64,000 nt of DNA from Halarchaeum nitratireducens (GCF_014647155.1 NZ_BMOQ01000001.1:248001-312000), one strand, 5' to 3'; shown: positions 18,619 to 29,502, counted from the stretch's first letter. A program made the numbers and translations. Notes: generated from the sequence alone by a model not told the origin.

Positions 18619-18622
18619 TTTT
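18619..18622 (+). promoter_or_regulatory. T-rich promoter box of cofH
   Basis: TTTT lies 26-29 nt before the cofH ATG at 18648, supporting the short start over the open frame at 18621. Confidence 0.4.
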
Positions 18623-18647
18623 GCGTGTGCGCGCGAAATCGACGTGT

Positions 18648-20000
18648 ATGTCTTGGATCGACGATCGGGCGGCGGACCTCGACGCCGACGAGTTCGGCTT
18701 CGACGTCGTCCCCGAGACCGACCAGTCCTTCGAGAACGCGCTCTCGAAGGCCCGCGACGGCGTTCGTCTGACCGTCGACGACGGGATCGAGCTCATCACG
18801 ACCGGCACCGACGTCGAGGGGCTCGATCCGTACCGGAAGGAACTCGTCTTGGAGGCCGCGGACCGCCGGCGCGCGGAGGTCGTCGGCGAGGAGGTGACGT
18901 TCATCGCCAACGTCAACAACAACGTCACGACGGCGTGCAACACCGGCTGTCTCTTCTGTAACTTCAAAGACACCGCCCACCAGTTCGAGACGGAGTACCA
19001 ACAGGAGCACGGCGGCTTCACGAAGTCGCCCGCCGAGTCGCGTGCGGTCGTCCAAGACGCCGTGGATCGCGGCGTCTACGAGGTCACGTCGGTATCGGGG
19101 CTTCATCCCGCCTTCGGGCTGAACGAGGAGCACCGCGAACTCCTCGACCCCGACGATCCCGAGCTGAACTACAAACCGCCGGAGGCGTACGACACCGATC
19201 CGACGACGTACCGCGAACAGATCGCCGCGATGGCCGAGACGGGCGCGCACGTCCACTCGATGACCCCCGAGGAGGTCGATCACGCGCAGCGCGGAGCCGA
19301 CTGGGGGTACGCGGACGTCTACCGCGAGCTCGCGGACGTCGGCCTGAAGACGGTGCCCGGAACCGCGGCGGAGATCCTCGTCGACGAGGTGCGCGAGATC
19401 ATCTGTCCGGGCAAGATCACCACCCAGGAGTGGGTGGACTCGATGGCCGCCGCCGCCGAGGTCGGCCTCCCGATGACGGCGACGATGATGTACGGTCACG
19501 TCGAGAACGAGGCCCACCGCGTGGAGCACCTGAAGGTCATCCGCGACCTCCAAGATCGGACGGACAACATCACGGAGTTCGTCCCGCTCTCCTTCATCCA
19601 CCAGGACACCCCGCTCCACGAACACGGCGTCGTCGAGTCGGGGGCCTCGAAGGCCGAGGACGAACTGCTGATCGCCGTCGCGCGCCTCTTCCTCGACAAC
19701 GTCGAGCACATCCAGTCCTCGTGGGTGAAGTACGGCGACGAGTTCGGCCTCAAACTCCTCAACTGCGGCGCGGACGACTTCATGGGCACCATCCTCTCTG
19801 AGGAGATCACGAAGCGCGCGGGCGGTCAGTACGGCGAGTTCCGCTCCTTCCGCGACTACGTCGAGATGCTCACGGCGATCGGCCGTCCGCCGGTCGAGCG
19901 GAACACCGACTACACCGAACGCCGTCGGATCGACACGGATGCGGACGTTTTCGGTCCCCAGCTCGGCCCCGCGGCCGACGGCACACCGCTCCTCGACTAG
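18648..20000 (+). CDS. cofH: FO synthase subunit 2, CofH
   Basis: A 450-residue radical SAM enzyme with Cys97-x3-Cys101-x2-Cys104 (CNTGCLFCNF). Together with CofG it makes FO, the deazaflavin chromophore of coenzyme F420, from tyrosine and a ribityl-aminouracil. CofH-type features include the TSVSGLHPAFGLNEEHRELL stretch, TVPGTAAEILVDEVREIICPGKI and the C-terminal GGQYGEFRSF. cofG and cofC are encoded within 9 kb. The start is ATG 18648 (MSWIDDRAAD). Confidence 0.95.
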   Translation: MSWIDDRAADLDADEFGFDVVPETDQSFENALSKARDGVRLTVDDGIELITTGTDVEGLDPYRKELVLEAADRRRAEVVGEEVTFIANVNNNVTTACNTGCLFCNFKDTAHQFETEYQQEHGGFTKSPAESRAVVQDAVDRGVYEVTSVSGLHPAFGLNEEHRELLDPDDPELNYKPPEAYDTDPTTYREQIAAMAETGAHVHSMTPEEVDHAQRGADWGYADVYRELADVGLKTVPGTAAEILVDEVREIICPGKITTQEWVDSMAAAAEVGLPMTATMMYGHVENEAHRVEHLKVIRDLQDRTDNITEFVPLSFIHQDTPLHEHGVVESGASKAEDELLIAVARLFLDNVEHIQSSWVKYGDEFGLKLLNCGADDFMGTILSEEITKRAGGQYGEFRSFRDYVEMLTAIGRPPVERNTDYTERRRIDTDADVFGPQLGPAADGTPLLD

Positions 20001-21034: not shown

Positions 21035-22537
21035 TCAGTGCCCGCGGTCGTGGGGTGCGACCTGCGTGCCGTAGTACTCCGCGTGGTCGGTGTAGTCGAT
21101 GAAGCGCGGCGCGTCCGGATCGAAGGGGCGTTCGAGCGACTCGAAGGCCTTCTTCTTGTCCCAGCCCTGGAGCTTCCCGACCGCCTTGCGCGAGTCGAGG
21201 TCGCGGTGTTCGAGGGCGTGCTCGGTGAGTTCCCACGCCTCCATGCCTTCCTCGGTGCGGACGATGACGGAGGAGTAGCCGTCCGCGGAGCCGACGGATC
21301 CGACGGTGATGTCGGAGGTCATGCCGGTGAAGTCCGCGCACTCGTCACAGCCCTTGAGGGTGGCGTCGTGGAACTCGCCGACGTCCTCGGCGATGATCTG
21401 CTCGCCGTCGTTTCCGTAGACGCGCATCTCCCCCTCGATGACGTCCATCTTCCCGATGTCCTCGGGGTAGATGTCGCGCTTCTCGGCGAGCTGCTCACCG
21501 ATGAGGCGCTCGTAGTTGAAGTTCTTCGTGCACATCAGCGAGATGCGGTAGTCGACGGCCCCGAGGAGCTCCGTCTGTGCGCCCTTCGACCAGTCGAAGT
21601 CCTGGAGGGCGCGGACGCCCTCGATCTCGCAGGGCGTGCCGACGAGCGCGAGGCTGAGGTCCTCGGGGTCCTTCTCGGGGAGCTTGTGCTCCCACCGCCC
21701 GAGGTCGAGGTTGCCGAGCGCCATCGTCTGGTTGTAGAACGAGCCGGCGTTCTCGACGAGGTCCTCGTGGCTCGTGGCGAGGAAGGACTCGGCCTTCCAC
21801 GGGTCCTCTTCGGACTCGGTGGCGACGAGCGCACCGTCGATCTCGCCCTCCTCCAGCAGCGTGGAGAGGACGGCGGTGACGACGCCGCCGTCCTGGGCGT
21901 CCTCGTGCCAGTCGTCGCGAACCTGTGCCGTGAACTCCGTGATGGGGTCACCAGCGCCGCTGACGTTGTCGTCGCCGCCGGTGATCTTCCACTGGCGCTC
22001 GTAGCGCAGACCGCCGCGCGGACAGAAGTCCCAACACATCGAGCAGCCCGTACACATCTTGACGAGCTCGGGGTGGCCGTCGTCGCCGACGCCGATGGAG
22101 TCGGAAGGACAGGCGGCGACGCAGGTCCCACACTGGATACAGCGGTCGGCGTCGATGACCGCCTCGTCCAGCTCCGTGAACCACGTCTTCTCGTCGGGCG
22201 TCTCGATGTCGTTCATCTCCGAGCGGATCGAGTACTCGGGGGTGTCGAGATCGACGCCCTCCGGGACGCCGACGCGCTTGTCGGGCTCCGCGCCCGGAGA
22301 GTCGACGTCCTGGCTCTTGCCCGTCGAGGGCTCGGTGAACTCCAGGTCGCCGAGCTGACCGTTCTCGTCGACGTTGACGGCTCCACCGTCCGCGCGGACG
22401 TCCGCGTTCGCGCTCCGGCTCTGGCCGGCACCCGTCGAGCAGCCACAGTCGCTCCCGCAGGCCTCGCCCTCGTTCCCGCCGTCGCTCGCGTTCGACGATC
22501 CGGCGCTCGGAACGCCCGGTTGGGGGCGTTCAGTCAC
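21035..22537 (-). CDS. FrhB/FpoF-like F420H2-oxidising flavo-iron-sulfur protein
   Basis: A 500-residue protein. Two [4Fe-4S] ferredoxin motifs lie at Cys133/136/139/143 (CIQCGTCVAACP) and Cys162/165/168/172 (CTGCSMCWDFCP). FrhB N- and C-terminal domains follow (about residues 205-480), with LALVGTPCEIEGVRAL and CDECADFTGMTSDI. FrhB domains bind FAD and accept hydride from F420H2. The N-terminal 120 residues are disordered and include a Cys cluster, CGSDCGC (27-33). GTG 22537 overlaps the stop of the siroheme reductase gene by eight bases, so the two are translationally coupled. It likely feeds electrons from F420H2 to that reductase. The longer open-frame start at 22573 is less likely. Confidence 0.88.
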   Translation of the reverse strand: MTERPQPGVPSAGSSNASDGGNEGEACGSDCGCSTGAGQSRSANADVRADGGAVNVDENGQLGDLEFTEPSTGKSQDVDSPGAEPDKRVGVPEGVDLDTPEYSIRSEMNDIETPDEKTWFTELDEAVIDADRCIQCGTCVAACPSDSIGVGDDGHPELVKMCTGCSMCWDFCPRGGLRYERQWKITGGDDNVSGAGDPITEFTAQVRDDWHEDAQDGGVVTAVLSTLLEEGEIDGALVATESEEDPWKAESFLATSHEDLVENAGSFYNQTMALGNLDLGRWEHKLPEKDPEDLSLALVGTPCEIEGVRALQDFDWSKGAQTELLGAVDYRISLMCTKNFNYERLIGEQLAEKRDIYPEDIGKMDVIEGEMRVYGNDGEQIIAEDVGEFHDATLKGCDECADFTGMTSDITVGSVGSADGYSSVIVRTEEGMEAWELTEHALEHRDLDSRKAVGKLQGWDKKKAFESLERPFDPDAPRFIDYTDHAEYYGTQVAPHDRGH

Positions 22538-24236
22538 CGTGCGCCACCCCCGTCGAGACGGGGCCGTCGGCACGCTGCATCACGGTGCGCAGGCGGTCGT
22601 TGTCGACGCGGCGCGTCCACTCGTAGAAGCGCTCGCCCTCCGTGCGCTCCTCGGTGTAGACGGCAAACAGCTCCTCCAGGGCGTCGGTGACGCTCCCGGC
22701 GGGGACGGCGGTCTCCACCCAGTCGATGAAGGCGTTGTCGGCGCCGAGGCTTCCCCCGAGGCCGACGTCCATGCCCTCGACGATGTCGTCGTCTGAGTTG
22801 TCCGCGGTCTCGACCTTCACGGTCTCGCCGCGGAAGCCGACGTCGGCGATCTGGGGCTGCGCGCACGAGGCCGAGCACCCGGACATGTGCATGCGGACGA
22901 CGTCGAGGTCGTCGGGCGTCTCGATCTGCTCGTCGAGCTGGCGCGCCCACTGCTTCGTGCGGGCCTTCGTCTCGATGATCGCGTACTTGCAGTATTCGGT
23001 GCCCGTGCAGGCGACCGCGCCGCGGGAGAACGGGCCGGGGTCGGGCTGGTAGTCCTCGGCGAACTCCTCGTTCACGAGGTCCTCGACGTTCTCCTCGGGG
23101 ACGTGGGTGATGAGGAAGTTCTGGTCGGTGGCGAGGCGAATGGTCGACTCCTCGGTGCCGTACTCCTTCGCCGCTCGTGCGGCCTCGACGAACTCGTCGC
23201 CACCGACGCGACCGGAGATGACGTTGAAGCCGACGTACTGCAGTCCCTCCTGCTTCTGGTCGTGGACGCCGACGTGGTCGCCGACGTACCCCTCGGTGAG
23301 GTCGATCCCGCTCTCGGGGAGCTCCACGTCGCAGCGCTCGCGGACCGCCTGCTCGAAGTTCTCCGGGCCCATCTGCTGGACGAGGTAGCGCATCCGGCAG
23401 ACGCCGCGGTTGTGCCGGTCGCCGAGCTCCTTGAACGTCTGCGCGATGGCGCGGCAGAGCTCGACGGCGTCCTCCGGGCGGACGAAGACGTCGAGGTTCG
23501 AGGCCATCCGCGGGCCGTCCGAGAGGCCGCCGCCGACGCGGAGGTGGAAGCCGTACGTGTAGCCGGCGCCCTCGCCGTCGAGTTCCTTCTTCGCGGGGAC
23601 GAGCCCGACGTCGTTGATCTGGGACTGCGCGCAGTCGTGCTTGCAGCCCGTGATCGTCATCTTGAACTTCCGCGGGAGGTTGCCGAACTCGCGGTTGCCG
23701 GTGAAGTAGTCGCTGACGGCGTCGATGACCGGCTGGGCGTCGAAGCACTCGTGCTCGTCGAGGCCCGCCGCGGGACAGCCGAGGACGTTGCGCGCGGAGT
23801 CACCGCATCCCTGGATCGTGGTGAGGCCGACCTCGTCGTACTTGTCCCAGATCTCCGGGATGTCCTCGACGCGGATCCAGTGCATCTGGATGTCCTGTCG
23901 CGTCGTGATGTCGAGGTAGGCGTCGCCCCAGTAGTCGTCGTTGACCTCGTCGTACTCCTCCTCGGGCTGGACCGCGTACTCGTCGGCGACCTCGCCGATG
24001 ACCTCGGCCTGCTCGGGTGTGAGGTGGCCGCCGGGGACCTTCGTCCGCATCATGAAGTACCCCTCCTGCTTCTGGGTGTAGGTGCCCGCCCACTTCAGGC
24101 GCTCCCACTCGCCGTCCCCCGCCCGCTCCTCGATCTCGTCGAAACCGAGCTCCTCCTCTGCGTACTCGCGGAGGTCCGCGACGACATCGAGGGGATGTTT
24201 CTCCTGTTTCCACTGTTCGGTCGTGTTCAGACTCAC
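22530..24236 (-). CDS. Siroheme [4Fe-4S] nitrite/sulfite reductase
   Basis: A 568-residue assimilatory-type reductase. The cluster-siroheme ligands are Cys410 and Cys416 (CTGTEYC), Cys454 and Cys458 (CSASC). The N-terminal half has TTRQDIQMHW, TTIQGCGDSARNVLGCP and TGCKHDCAQ, the usual NirA/Sir half-domain landmarks. It performs a six-electron reduction of nitrite or sulfite; the substrate cannot be separated by eye. The start is GTG 24236 (MSLNTTEQW), with a TACAAAG-like box about 30 nt upstream. It is first gene of an operon with the FrhB-like protein, which suggests reduced F420 rather than only ferredoxin as donor. No nitrate reductase gene is nearby. Confidence 0.93.
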   Translation of the reverse strand: MSLNTTEQWKQEKHPLDVVADLREYAEEELGFDEIEERAGDGEWERLKWAGTYTQKQEGYFMMRTKVPGGHLTPEQAEVIGEVADEYAVQPEEEYDEVNDDYWGDAYLDITTRQDIQMHWIRVEDIPEIWDKYDEVGLTTIQGCGDSARNVLGCPAAGLDEHECFDAQPVIDAVSDYFTGNREFGNLPRKFKMTITGCKHDCAQSQINDVGLVPAKKELDGEGAGYTYGFHLRVGGGLSDGPRMASNLDVFVRPEDAVELCRAIAQTFKELGDRHNRGVCRMRYLVQQMGPENFEQAVRERCDVELPESGIDLTEGYVGDHVGVHDQKQEGLQYVGFNVISGRVGGDEFVEAARAAKEYGTEESTIRLATDQNFLITHVPEENVEDLVNEEFAEDYQPDPGPFSRGAVACTGTEYCKYAIIETKARTKQWARQLDEQIETPDDLDVVRMHMSGCSASCAQPQIADVGFRGETVKVETADNSDDDIVEGMDVGLGGSLGADNAFIDWVETAVPAGSVTDALEELFAVYTEERTEGERFYEWTRRVDNDRLRTVMQRADGPVSTGVAHGD

Positions 24237-24436: not shown

Positions 24437-25525
24437 TTACGGATCGGCGCGGACGGCCCGGTAGCGTTCGCCGGCCTCGTCCGTCGCGTCGAGGGCCGCC
24501 AGCATGCGCTCGGAGAGCCACGCCTCGTCGAGGTAGCGCTCGTACGTCGGGAGTCGCTCCGTCAGCGGGACGCCCGCGTGCTCGGCGACGGCCTCCAGTT
24601 CGCGCAGCGCCGGCCACGCGTACTCGGGGTTGACGTGGTCGTCCGTCACCGGCGATACGCCCCCCAAGTCGTCGATCCCGCAGTCGACGACGTCGCGGGC
24701 GTCCATGAGGTTCGGCGGTACCTGCACGGAGACGCCCTCCGGGAGGACGGCGCGCGCCATCGCCACCGCGCGACGCATCGTCGCCGTCGACGGCGACCCC
24801 TCCTGCCAGCGCTCGTTGTCCGTGACCGGTTGGACGATCACCTCCTGGACGTGCCCGTATCGTCGATCGAGCTCCCGGATCGCTAGCAGGCTCTCCGCCC
24901 GGTCGCGCCACGTCTCGCCGAGGCCGACGAGGATGCCCGTCGTGAAGGGGATCCCGTGTTTCCCCGCGTTGGCGATGGTGTTCAGGCGCTGGCCCGGCAC
25001 CTTCGAGCGCGGCCCGCCGTGCGCCCGCACCTCGGCGGTCGTCTCCAGCATCACGCCCATCGAGGCGTTGACGTCCGCGACCGCCCCCATCTCCTCGTAG
25101 GTCTGATCGCCCGGATTGCTGTGCGGGAGGAGCCCCTCCTCCAGGGCGATCTCGCAGGCCTCGCGGAGATACGTGTGGATCGAGTCGTGACCGAGGTCGG
25201 CGAGCTCGTCGTGGATCTCCGTGTACCGATCGTCCGGATCGTCGCCGAAGGTGAAGAGCGCCTCCGTACAGCCCGCGGCCGCGCCGCGCCGACACGTCTC
25301 GCGGATCTCCTCGGGCGTCATGAGCGTCGCCTGTCCGGGCGGATCGTAGTAGGTGCAGTAGGTACACGTGTAGCGACACGCCGTCGTCAGCGGGAGGAAG
25401 ACGTTCCGCGCGAAGGAGAGCTCGTCCGCCGCCGCGACGTCGTCCGGACGGACCGCGAGCGCGTCCCGCACGTCGCGCTCCGCGACCGTCACGTCGACGT
25501 CGTACGCCTCGATACCCGGGAACAC
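24437..25525 (-). CDS. cofG: FO synthase subunit 1, CofG
   Basis: A 362-residue radical SAM protein with Cys50-x3-Cys54-x2-Cys57 (CRYTCTYC). Partner of CofH in making FO for coenzyme F420. The sequence [24 protein letters not shown]-like block and [15 protein letters not shown] are typical. GTG 25525 ([10 protein letters not shown]) is chosen because haloarchaeal CofG proteins begin at this point and a minus-strand TTTTT box lies 26-31 nt upstream. The frame is open to 25639, but the extra residues read as antisense of trpB. cofC lies about 1.4 kb away beyond trpB. Confidence 0.93.
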
Positions 25526-25598
25526 GCCCGGCGCTACTGCGTCCGTGCCGAAAAACGTTGCTACAGGGGCGACGCGTCCCGCCACGAGCGGCGCACGC

Positions 25599-25604
25599 TT
25601 TATG
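25599..25604 (+). promoter_or_regulatory. TATA-like box of trpB
   Basis: TTTATG lies 25-30 nt before the trpB ATG at 25629. Confidence 0.5.
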
Positions 25605-25628
25605 CCGGTCAGGGCGAATCCCTCGCGT

Positions 25629-26779
25629 ATGTCCGGCACGTTCGACGGCTACGGCGGCCGCCACGTCCCCGATCCGCTCGAAGCGCCCCTCGAACAGCTC
25701 GCGGCGACCTACGACGACCTGAGAGACGACGACGACTTCCGCGCGGACCTCGATCTGTTCCTCCGCGACTTCGCGGGCCGTCCGACGCCGCTCTACTACG
25801 CCGAGCGCCTCTCCGCGGAGTACGGCGCCGAGATCTACCTCAAGCGCGAGGACCTCCTCCACGGCGGCGCCCACAAGATCAACAACGCCCTCGGACAGGG
25901 CCTCCTCGCCCACCACGCCGGCAAGGACCGCCTCATCGCGGAGACGGGCGCGGGTCAGCACGGTACCGCGACGGCGATGGTCGGCGCGCTCCTCGGCCTC
26001 GACACGGAGATCTACATGGGCGAGAAGGACATCGAGCGCCAGAAGATGAACGTCTTCCGCATGCGTCTGATGGGCGCCGAGGTCAACGAGGTCACGCGCG
26101 GCGACGCCGGCCTCGCGGACGCCGTCGACGCCGCCCTCGAGGACTTCGCGGCGAACGTCGAGGACACCCACTACCTCGTCGGCAGCGTCGTCGGCCCCGA
26201 CCCCTTCCCGCGGATGGTCCGGGACTTCCAGCGCGTCATCGGCGACGAGGCCCGCGAGCAGTTCCGCGAGCGCACCGGCGGCCTCCCCGACGCCGCCGTC
26301 GCCTGCGTCGGCGGCGGATCGAACGCCATGGGCCTCTTCCACGCCTTCCGCGACGACGACGTCGAGTTCCACGGCGCGGAGGGCGGCGGCGAGGGCGCGG
26401 ACTCGAAGCGTCACGCCGCGCCGCTCGCCGCCGGCGAAGACGGCGTCATCACGGCATGAAGACGCGCGTCATCGACGACGACGTCGAGGTCCACTCCGTC
26501 TCCGCCGGTCTCGATTACCCCGGGGTCGGCCCCGAGCACGCCATGTTCCGCGCCGTCGGGCGCGCCGAATACACCGGGATCCCGGACGACGAGGCGCTCG
26601 CCGCCTTCCGCGACCTCGCGGAGTGCGAGGGGATTATCCCCGCCCTCGAATCGAGCCACGGGCTCGCGCTCGCCAAGCGCCTCGCCGAGGCGGGCGAGCA
26701 CGACACGCTCCTCGTGAACCTCTCCGGGCGCGGCGACAAGGACATGGAACAGGCCGCGGAGCGCTTCGACCTCGGCTGA
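25629..26779 (+). pseudogene. trpB: Tryptophan synthase beta chain, split by a one-base deletion
   Basis: The first part (25629-26459) encodes 276 residues of TrpB with PLP lysine Lys83 in [12 protein letters not shown], the [10 protein letters not shown] loop and phosphate-binding GGGSNAMG. It runs out of frame at DGVITA-stop. The rest (from [18 protein letters not shown] 26456) continues in another frame through the conserved [14 protein letters not shown] and [13 protein letters not shown] to 26779. Family proteins read GVI-H-G-M here, so one C appears missing near 26449-26451. Together the parts give about 383 residues with no gap, so loss is very recent or an assembly error. ATGA overlap of the two frames could allow coupled translation of two halves. 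trpA and trpC are absent nearby. Confidence 0.9.
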
Positions 26780-26910: not shown

Positions 26911-27516
26911 TCACTCCCTCCGGGTGACGTTCGTCCGCCCAGCGCCGTCGGCGAGCGCGACGCCCGCGTCTCTGAGCCACCTGGGCGTCCGCCCCTCGCC
27001 GCGCGACAACACGTCCGCGAGGTCCGCGCGCTCGTCGACGTCGAGGGCGAGGCGCGCCGCGTCGAACTCCCGCACCGAACAGCCCGCCGCCGCGGCGTTC
27101 CGCAGGTGGTCGCGGTACGACGCGCCGTGGTAGTCGACCGCGAAGCCGTCGTCGCGGACGACGAGCGCGTTCGTCCCGCCGCCGAGGCCGGGCGCGAGGA
27201 CGACGTCGCCCGACGCCGCGAAGAGGGACCGGAGGACGCGCGGCGTCGCCAGCGCGAGGTCCGCCATCACGACCGCCGTCCCCGGATCGAGGCGCGCGTT
27301 CACGGCGTCGCTCAGCCCCCGCTCGTCCACCGCGACCGGCGCGTCGCACGCGACGTCCTCGGTGGCGACGACGAGCGGCTCGCCACCCGCCGCGTGCACC
27401 GCGTCGAGGACGTCCGCGAGCATCACCGCCGCCAGCTCGCGGCGCTCCGCGGGCGAGAACAGCGCGTCGAGACGCGTCTTCGGATCCGTCGCGTCGAACG
27501 GGACGAGCGTCCGCAT
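26911..27516 (-). CDS. cofC: 2-phospho-L-lactate guanylyltransferase CofC
   Basis: A 201-residue nucleotidyltransferase-fold protein: MRTLVPFDATDPKTRLDALFSPAERRELAAVML at the start (the PK-x-R nucleotide site), PGTAVVMADLALATPRVL in the core, and APGLGGGTNALVVRD near residue 130. It activates 2-phospholactate (or a related three-carbon acid) with GTP for F420 assembly. ATG 27516 is preferred over GTG 27522. It lies on the same strand as cofG with the trpB gene between them on the opposite strand. Confidence 0.92.
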   Translation of the reverse strand: MRTLVPFDATDPKTRLDALFSPAERRELAAVMLADVLDAVHAAGGEPLVVATEDVACDAPVAVDERGLSDAVNARLDPGTAVVMADLALATPRVLRSLFAASGDVVLAPGLGGGTNALVVRDDGFAVDYHGASYRDHLRNAAAAGCSVREFDAARLALDVDERADLADVLSRGEGRTPRWLRDAGVALADGAGRTNVTRRE

Positions 27517-27557
27517 CGTCACCCGCTACCCGGCCGAGGCGAAAAAGCCGTGTGACT

Positions 27558-28343
27558 TCAGCCGAGGCGGTCGTAGGTGTCGCGCTGATTCAGGTACCAC
27601 CAGACGATCCCCCCGAGGATCACGAGGAGCACGACGACACCGCCGCCGATGAGCGCCCAGCGCTGGGTCCGCTGGGAGGAGGAGGCCGCGTCGGCCCGCG
27701 ACTCCGCCTGGTTCGCCAGCGAGACCGCGTTGTCGAAGTTCCCCGCGTTGTACGCGGACTTCGCGTTCTGCAGGAGGTCGCGGGCGTCACCGATCCCCGC
27801 GCCCGACGCCGCGGCGCTCTCGACCGCGCTCTCGGACTGCTCGATCTCCATCCGGGCGCTCTGACTCGCCTCCGTGTACGGCCGGACGTCGTCCCACGTC
27901 TCGATCACCGTCGCCGAGCCGCCGGGTTGGGCCTGCGTGAACGCCGCGTACGTGATCGATTGCGCCGGCTCGTAGCTCCAGCGCTCGACCGGCGGCGTCG
28001 TGCCCGTCAGGTCGACGGTCACGCGCGTGACGCCCTCGCTCGCCTCCAGATCGTAATCGAACGACCGGCCGTTCAACACCCGCTTGTCGACCTGCGCGCC
28101 GGTGTTGTCGTACGTCGTCACGACCCACGTCACGTCCGTCAGCTCCGTCTCGCCGCGAAGCGTCCACTCGTTGTACTGCCCGGAGAAGGGATCCGTGAAC
28201 GTGAACTGCGTCTCCTGTTTCGCGCCGACCTCGGCGCTCTGGGGCACGTCGCCGCTCGCGTCGACGGCGAGCGCGCCGCCGGCGGCCGTCGCGAGGAGCA
28301 CGAGCGCCGCGAGCGCGAGCTTAGAACAGCGGCTCGAGTTCAT
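27558..28343 (-). CDS. Exported membrane-anchored protein overlapping cetZ1
   Basis: The function is unknown. The 261-residue protein has an N-terminal signal peptide (about residues 1-27, Leu/Ala-rich ending GGALA), an extracellular beta-rich domain, an Ala/Asn-rich helical stretch (GDARDLLQNAKSAYNAGNFDNAV) and a C-terminal membrane helix (ALIGGGVVVLLVILGGIVWWYL) with a short cytoplasmic tail. ATG 28343 lies 23 bases inside the cetZ1 gene, so the two are tightly coupled. A receptor- or anchor-like role linked to CetZ1 is an inference from this overlap only. Confidence 0.8.
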   Translation of the reverse strand: MNSSRCSKLALAALVLLATAAGGALAVDASGDVPQSAEVGAKQETQFTFTDPFSGQYNEWTLRGETELTDVTWVVTTYDNTGAQVDKRVLNGRSFDYDLEASEGVTRVTVDLTGTTPPVERWSYEPAQSITYAAFTQAQPGGSATVIETWDDVRPYTEASQSARMEIEQSESAVESAAASGAGIGDARDLLQNAKSAYNAGNFDNAVSLANQAESRADAASSSQRTQRWALIGGGVVVLLVILGGIVWWYLNQRDTYDRLG

Positions 28344-29502
28344 CGTCGTCGTCTTCGACGAGCTCCTGTAAGTTCTGTTCGCTCTCCGATTCGATCTCGC
28401 CGATGTTCTCCTGGGCCTCAATGGCGACCTGTTGGAGCTCCTTGATCCGCGGGACGTTCGTCACGCCGCTGAGCAGGACGACGGCCGCGACGTTGTCGGA
28501 GGCCTCGACGGGGTAGTCGCCGCCGCGCACCTCCATCGAGCCGGTCTGCTCTTCGAGCCACTTGCGCCCGCGCTCGATCCCCTTCCGGTTGAGGAACTTC
28601 GAGGGGCCGGCGGTGACGAGCAGCGCCCGCTCCGCGCCGTCGATCTCGCAGGGGAGAGTGAGCCGCCCGAGCGCGGCCTTCCGGACGAGCGACGTGATCC
28701 GGTTCGTCGTGTTCGCCGAGTCCAGCGAGCTCTCCTCGTTCGAGCCGGTGAACCGCGAGAGGATGCCACCGCCCCCCTTCTCGTCCGCGACGCTCTCCGC
28801 CGCGTACCCGACCGTCGAGACCCCACCGCCCGCGAGCGTGTTGATGATCTCGGAGGAGTCGACGACGCTCTCCGCGACCTCGCCGCCCTGCTCGACCTCG
28901 CCCGCGCCGAAGAGGATGCCGAAGCGTTTGACGATCTCCTCGTTGATCTGCGCGTAGCCCCCCTGCATCGACTCGCCGGTCTTGCGCCACGCGTCGTTGT
29001 CGAAGACGAGGAGGTTGTCGACCTCGCGCACGAGCGTCTGGAACGACCGCGCGGCGTTCAGCGTGTAGATGCCGCCCTCGTCGCCCGCGGGGAGGACGCC
29101 GAGCCCGTAGACGGGTTCGGTGTAGATGCGTTTGATGTGGCGCGCCAGGACGGGCGACCCGCCGGAGCCGGTGCCGCCACCGAGGCCGGTGATGATGAGG
29201 AACGCGTCGATCTCGTGGACGGGGATGTCGTCGATCGACCCCTGGATCTCGTCGATGTCCTCCTCGGCGATCTCGGCTCCGAGTTCGTTGTCCGCGCCGA
29301 CGCCGTGGCCCTTCACCCGCGATTGGCCGATGAGCACCCGGTTCTCCTCCGGGACGTGCTCCAGCCCCATCAGGTCGGCCTTCGCCGTGTTGACCGCCAC
29401 GGCCGCCCGGACGATGTTGCTCCCCGCCTGCTGGTCGTGCTCGAGGAACGCATCGAGTATCTTCCCACCGGCTTGTCCGAAGCCGATCATTGCGAGTTTC
29501 AT
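28321..29502 (-). CDS. cetZ1: Tubulin-like cell-shape protein CetZ1
   Basis: A 393-residue tubulin/FtsZ superfamily GTPase of the CetZ group. The N-terminal MKLAMIGFGQAGGKI and GTP-binding loop GGGTGSG (108-114) are clear. The long domain spacer, VSTVGYAAES segment and acidic C-terminal tail ending DDDDELEPLF match CetZ1, which controls rod formation and motility in Haloferax. It is in an operon with the overlapping exported protein, and cofC follows further downstream on the same strand. A TTATCC-like box lies about 40 nt upstream. Confidence 0.94.
   Translation of the reverse strand: MKLAMIGFGQAGGKILDAFLEHDQQAGSNIVRAAVAVNTAKADLMGLEHVPEENRVLIGQSRVKGHGVGADNELGAEIAEEDIDEIQGSIDDIPVHEIDAFLIITGLGGGTGSGGSPVLARHIKRIYTEPVYGLGVLPAGDEGGIYTLNAARSFQTLVREVDNLLVFDNDAWRKTGESMQGGYAQINEEIVKRFGILFGAGEVEQGGEVAESVVDSSEIINTLAGGGVSTVGYAAESVADEKGGGGILSRFTGSNEESSLDSANTTNRITSLVRKAALGRLTLPCEIDGAERALLVTAGPSKFLNRKGIERGRKWLEEQTGSMEVRGGDYPVEASDNVAAVVLLSGVTNVPRIKELQQVAIEAQENIGEIESESEQNLQELVEDDDDELEPLF

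Follow-up and report, generated by a model that had tools for sequence, protein, structure and literature searches.

Two overlapping haloarchaeal genes predicted to encode an F420H2-driven, two-subunit assimilatory-type sulfite reductase

Two overlapping genes in the window (i.e., the whole 64,000-nucleotide stretch of Halarchaeum nitratireducens DNA that was analysed) are interpreted here, with somewhat better than even confidence, as a haloarchaeal assimilatory-type sulfite reductase (aFsr) that is driven by F420H2 and probably obtains its sulfite from thiosulfate. In the proposed mechanism, the second gene product (aFsr-beta) would bind FAD and three [4Fe-4S] clusters and, in a predicted complex with the first (aFsr-alpha), would pass electrons to the siroheme-[4Fe-4S] centre of the latter, where sulfite would be reduced to sulfide with six electrons. 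The sulfite itself would probably be formed by rhodanese from thiosulfate, or else come from another organic or inorganic sulfur source, and not from sulfate by way of ATP sulfurylase. The idea dates from 2012, when such a pair was proposed in haloarchaea as aFsr-alpha/aFsr-beta (Susanti & Mukhopadhyay; PMC3448663), and the window's pair is a further member of this predicted kind, with a NirA/aSir-type siroheme subunit beside an Fsr-N/FpoF-like subunit. The Fsr-like logic put forward in the first-pass annotation (i.e., an F420H2-oxidase half and an assimilatory siroheme half as separate subunits) is well supported, as well as already published. aFsr-beta was again termed putative in 2022, in work on a nitrite reductase from ANME archaea (PMC9295563), and no experimental test of the aFsr pair was found in the literature searched.

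The reductase gene and the residues on which its assignment depends are located as follows:

22530..24236, minus strand: aFsr-alpha, NirA/Sir-type siroheme-[4Fe-4S] reductase of 568 aa with a GTG start (ORF and Pfam)
22863..23009, minus strand: siroheme/[4Fe-4S] ligands Cys 410, 416, 454 and 458 of alpha (CX5C-Xn-CX3C), predicted; invariant in the alignment
23898..23900, minus strand: Arg113, putative anion-pocket arginine of alpha, invariant; its motif TTRQ matches the known pocket Arg
23790..23792, minus strand: Arg149, putative anion-pocket arginine of alpha, invariant
23661..23669, minus strand: K190-F-K192, the Lys-x-Lys of the sulfite-type anion pocket of alpha, aligned with Asn226 of tobacco NiR

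aFsr-alpha contains both NIR_SIR halves (NIR_SIR and NIR_SIR_ferr) above the Pfam cut-off, and the four ligand cysteines were unchanged in all of 21 relatives, so that the siroheme reductase as first annotated stands. The AlphaFold model of alpha reached a pLDDT of 85, and Foldseek returned plant NiR and Mycobacterium tuberculosis NirA at the top, followed by maize SiR. Since matches to NiR/SiR (1e-40 to 1e-21) were far stronger than those to Fsr/Dsr (only 1e-11 to 1e-6), the enzyme is indeed of the assimilatory NirA/Sir type and not Dsr-like.

The partner gene carries the following features:

21035..22537, minus strand: aFsr-beta, ferredoxin plus FrhB electron-input subunit of 500 aa with a GTG start (ORF, Pfam, PDB and Foldseek)
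22530..22537, minus strand: 8-base overlap of the alpha and beta genes (translational coupling)
22439..22459, minus strand: Cys motif C27-GSD-C31-G-C33 in the disordered acidic N-terminal arm of beta
22022..22141, minus strand: two complete CX2CX2CX3CP [4Fe-4S] motifs in the ferredoxin domain of beta (residues 133-172), invariant in pair types A and B (see below)
21716..21934, minus strand: FrhB_FdhB_N of beta (residues 202-274; Pfam E 1e-21)
21206..21655, minus strand: FrhB_FdhB_C of beta (residues 295-444; Pfam E 2e-32)

The most likely start of aFsr-beta is the GTG at 22537 (500 aa), position 22573 being merely the first possible start of the ORF. With this start the overlap with alpha measures exactly 8 bases (22530-22537), as had been annotated: the alpha gene ends in ...GGTGACTGA, and the GTG inside that string is the beta start. 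The Fer4 dicluster, FrhB_FdhB_N and FrhB_FdhB_C domains each exceeded the Pfam cut-off, in agreement with the annotated partner with two [4Fe-4S] motifs and FrhB N and C domains; moreover, the third-cluster cysteines of FrhB_FdhB_C (Cys 303, 336, 397 and 400) were invariant in the alignment, which places beta in the FrhB family. The structure model of beta has low confidence in the ferredoxin domain and in the arm that precedes it. This N-terminal arm is long, acidic and poorly conserved; a C-x3/4-C-x-C motif is nevertheless present in 68/78 loci (vs. a mean of 0.27 after shuffling), in forms such as CGSDCGC here and CSPDTCTC or CGCGSSCGC in other loci, and is absent from some members (e.g., L051 and L041). 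It resembles metal-binding Cys clusters and possibly binds metal or carries sulfur.

Pairing of the two genes was examined in 242 haloarchaeal genomes, 64 of which (the window's genome included) carry the window's reductase type, referred to as type A; the other 63 proteins have 69-96% identity to the window's. Because 64/64 of these carry the partner on the same contig and strand and in the same order, reductase first, the pairing is far beyond chance and, among these genomes, obligate. The co-occurrence and gene-order check suggested at first pass thus came out in favour of the pair, which was adjacent throughout. Among 80 named public loci, all haloarchaeal as far as their titles show, the reductase motif lies upstream of beta in 75, and the genes overlap by 11 bases in 42 and by 8 bases in 28 loci (together 70/75). 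In a phylum-wide sample, the window's reductase type was confined to the class Halobacteria.

Besides type A, a deeper pair was present in 24 genomes (type B), with a reductase of ~48% identity. Two rhodanese domains are fused to the N terminus of this reductase, and an FrhB-like gene of its own comes next:

L053:8902-12591 (also L054-L072): type B pair, tandem rhodanese-siroheme reductase, then FrhB-like gene

In ten type B loci the partner start codon directly follows the reductase stop, behind a GGAGGTGA ribosome site. The possibility that alpha and beta of this type are fused by in-frame read-through was considered and rejected, given the stop codon directly before the ATG. The haloarchaeal NirA-rhodanese fusion has been noted before, the partner gene not being mentioned in the accessible part of that text (PMC11237513). 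In the reductase tree, each of the types A (paired), B (paired) and C (unpaired) was monophyletic, with the branching order of A, B and C not settled, and no FrhB-like ORF was found near the reductase in 16 clade-C loci.

Pair A sits on a megaplasmid in Haloferax mediterranei (pHME505; alpha and beta there being E6P09_RS15580 and E6P09_RS15575) and in Salinirubellus, and Haladaptatus carries it on plasmids, which points to horizontal spread:

L106:5999-9419 and L107:3999-7416: plasmid-borne pairs

Another siroheme reductase is widespread in haloarchaea:

L079:8250-10028, minus strand, and relatives: stand-alone reductase C1 with a Lys-Trp-Lys pocket

Its best NCBIfam model is a ferredoxin-nitrite reductase, and its substrate may be sulfite or nitrite. 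C1 was found in 28/64 genomes with pair A vs. 139/178 without, i.e., more rarely alongside the pair than expected (odds ratio 0.22, p 1e-6, genome relatedness not corrected). Since the presence of C1 and of the other reductases was decided by best E-values and kinship of the genomes was uncorrected, this is only a hint that pair A can stand in for C1 and vice versa. Pair A was the sole siroheme reductase found in 12 genomes.

With regard to the substrate, all four anion-pocket residues of alpha are of the sulfite type (R113, R149, K190 and K192), the two arginines having been assigned to the pocket through their sequence motif. The same Arg, Arg, Lys, Lys set is reported to be common to sulfite reductases (PMC10229431, the Fsr structure paper), and together with the CX5C-Xn-CX3C motif it gives alpha the hallmarks of an assimilatory sulfite reductase. 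Lys-x-Lys was found in 21/21 sampled clade-A proteins and in 75/75 named loci. Moreover, at the position of K192 tobacco nitrite reductase has Asn226, and the PDB also contains its N226K mutant; this exchange shifts the plant nitrite reductase towards sulfite. The Lys-x-Asn pocket of an assimilatory NirA is lacking in alpha and instead occurs in the one further siroheme reductase of the window's genome, directly behind a gene that passes the cut-off for the haloarchaeal assimilatory nitrate reductase NasA:

L077:5636-10248: NasA, then Lys-x-Asn NirA (ferredoxin-type nitrite reductase), in the window's own genome

Because the nitrite task is already assigned to this NasA-linked enzyme, sulfite is the likelier substrate of alpha, as judged from its sequence, and the nitrite that the first-pass annotation had named alongside it is disfavoured.

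F420H2 is the likely electron donor, since beta is homologous to F420-dependent subunits and the F420 pathway is complete in the window's genome (cofC, cofG and cofH in the window; cofD and cofE elsewhere). Among PDB sequences, beta matched 8riu (E 8e-42) and Fsr (7np8/7npa; E 1e-39), and also FrhB. However, the turn that would contact the F420 phosphate reads IEGE in the window's beta vs. GKGK in FrhB and KKGK in MjFsr, with at most one Lys in other type A proteins and mostly none in type B, so that beta lacks the lysines that mark the F420 branch of the FrhB family. Since the assignment of the GKGK turn to the F420 phosphate is itself a model-based inference (PMC3591093), the loss of these lysines counts against F420 without excluding it. 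An F420H2-driven enzyme, as first annotated, is thus favoured by subunit homology and the full pathway and weakened by the lost turn and by the local nature of the cof linkage. The neighbouring cof genes were assigned with NCBIfam equivalog cut-offs:

24437..25639, minus strand: cofG, co-directional upstream neighbour, outside the conserved unit (TIGR03550, 442 bits, cut-off 213)
18621..20000, plus strand: cofH, neighbour (NF005609, 519 bits, cut-off 426)
26911..27522, minus strand: cofC, neighbour (TIGR03552, 148 bits, cut-off 105)

Their position close by on both sides had been noted and is correct (on the upstream side of the reductase, cofG ends at a distance of 200 bp and cofC lies ~2.7 kb away; cofH lies ~1 kb downstream). 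As an argument for F420 use it was rejected, because cof genes lie close to the pair in only 5/21 loci sampled across families, i.e., the linkage is local. A CetZ tubulin-like gene lies beside the cof genes (28321-29502, minus strand), and haloarchaea are known to have cofC/G/H near cetZ1 as an arrangement in its own right (PMC9856176).

As to the source of sulfite, ATP sulfurylase was found in 6/242 genomes, all of which lack pair A. Given this absence, pair A has no role in sulfate assimilation by the ATP-sulfurylase route; PF01507 was unusable as a marker for PAPS reductase, as nearly all genomes match it with unrelated PP-loop proteins. Haloarchaea have been reported to lack a sulfate pathway via APS/PAPS, and for Natronomonas it was proposed that a sulfurtransferase converts thiosulfate to sulfite and NP4004A converts sulfite to sulfide (PMC3402447). 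Two Natronomonas homologues of F420 enzymes, with NP_4006A compared to Fsr, were considered too distant to assign (Pfeiffer & Dyall-Smith 2021; PMC8305020). We infer that NP4004A and NP_4006A form such an alpha-beta pair, because their locus numbers adjoin and NP_4006A is a listed Fsr homologue. The rhodanese fusion of type B likewise suggests a route from thiosulfate via sulfite to sulfide; in the window's genome there were eight rhodanese matches, none within the reductase gene.

Other readings of the same pair have to be weighed against this. That the complex would physiologically be a nitrite reductase is very improbable in our estimation, even though alpha scores best against nitrite reductases in both the PDB and NCBIfam, siroheme enzymes are frequently promiscuous, and an ANME-2c homologue of Fsr is a nitrite reductase (PMC9295563). 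By PDB sequence, NCBIfam and Foldseek alike, alpha is nearest to nitrite reductases and to M. tuberculosis NirA, and because this set mixes nitrite reductases with a sulfite-reducing enzyme (according to reference 94 of PMC11237513), general similarity does not decide between the substrates. The Lys-x-Lys pocket, the separate Lys-x-Asn NirA behind NasA and the fusion of the sister pair to rhodanese, a sulfur enzyme, all argue against nitrite. It also seems unlikely that beta would receive its electrons from ferredoxin (as in HCAR and BciB) or a pyridine nucleotide instead of F420H2. Such a donor would agree with the poorly conserved lysine turn, with the fold that beta has in common with HCAR and, for ferredoxin, with the haloarchaeal Fdx donor for nitrate assimilation cited in PMC8305020. 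Yet beta is clearly nearer to F420-dependent subunits by both sequence and fold: HCAR was not among its PDB sequence matches, and Foldseek placed 8riu, 8rja, Fsr and FrhB at 1e-22 to 1e-18 and the ferredoxin-dependent HCAR only at 2e-13, which sets beta apart from the HCAR/BciB type. Moreover, a ferredoxin-dependent Sir needs no separate flavin subunit, and the F420 pathway is complete.

A further alternative concerns the role and is compatible with the F420H2 mechanism, its probability overlapping with that of the preferred explanation: the pair might mainly detoxify or recycle sulfite or persulfide sulfur, carried in clade A by the Cys arm of beta and in clade B by the rhodanese domains, rather than supply sulfide for biosynthesis. 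We regard this as possible but doubtful. Methanogen Fsr serves to detoxify sulfite (PMC10229431), and the frequent Cys motif, the type B fusion and the megaplasmid location in some species, which suits an accessory role, point the same way; conversely, the 12 genomes with pair A as sole siroheme reductase fit a supply role too, and the Cys arm is a putative sulfur carrier that may bind metal instead. More speculative still, and a good deal less probable than an F420H2-driven aFsr as such, is that there are two related haloarchaeal sulfite reductases of this kind that handle sulfur on the enzyme. In type B, the siroheme subunit would receive sulfite or the sulfur of thiosulfate from the tandem rhodanese domains; in the window's pair, the flexible C-x3/4-C-x-C arm of beta would bind metal or carry sulfur. 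If true, F420 would thereby gain its first defined function in the sulfur metabolism of haloarchaea.

According to a 2021 review (PMC8498797), what F420 does physiologically in halophiles is undetermined, and haloarchaeal sulfide formation has been called little known (PMC3402447). The aFsr pair offers one test for both. Haloferax mediterranei is open to genetic modification. Since FrhB_C was not found in H. volcanii, which had served as a control in the profile search, and this species has F420 genes (PMC8305020), it would serve as a clean expression host.

Compared with known systems, the pair comes closest to the predicted aFsr, with the same two subunits, organism class and proposed electron flow; the window's genus is not among the genera named in the accessible part of the 2012 account (PMC3448663). 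Relative to the first-pass annotation, the present analysis narrows the substrate from nitrite/sulfite to sulfite and adds the Cys arm and the sister pair with fused rhodanese; these two additions, and the sulfite-type pocket beside a Lys-x-Asn NirA, are absent from the accessible part of the 2012 account. The Fsr-N half of methanogen Fsr (7np8, 7npa) is homologous to beta across the ferredoxin and FrhB domains, but methanogen Fsr is one fused chain whose Dsr/AsrC-like C half has an inserted ferredoxin domain, whereas alpha is of the duplicated NirA/Sir type without that insertion; the two-gene arrangement thus lies outside Fsr groups I and II (single chain, Dsr-like C half, inserted ferredoxin domain). 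With M. tuberculosis NirA (SirA, 1zj8), plant NiR and SiR, alpha has the full fold and ligands in common, yet those enzymes use free ferredoxin and alpha has a dedicated flavin/Fe-S partner. Finally, FpoF/FqoF and the F420-reducing subunits of ethanotroph CODH and Fwd (8riu, 8rja) are, like beta, stand-alone ferredoxin plus FrhB input/output modules, from which beta differs by its catalytic partner and its acidic N-terminal arm with a Cys motif.
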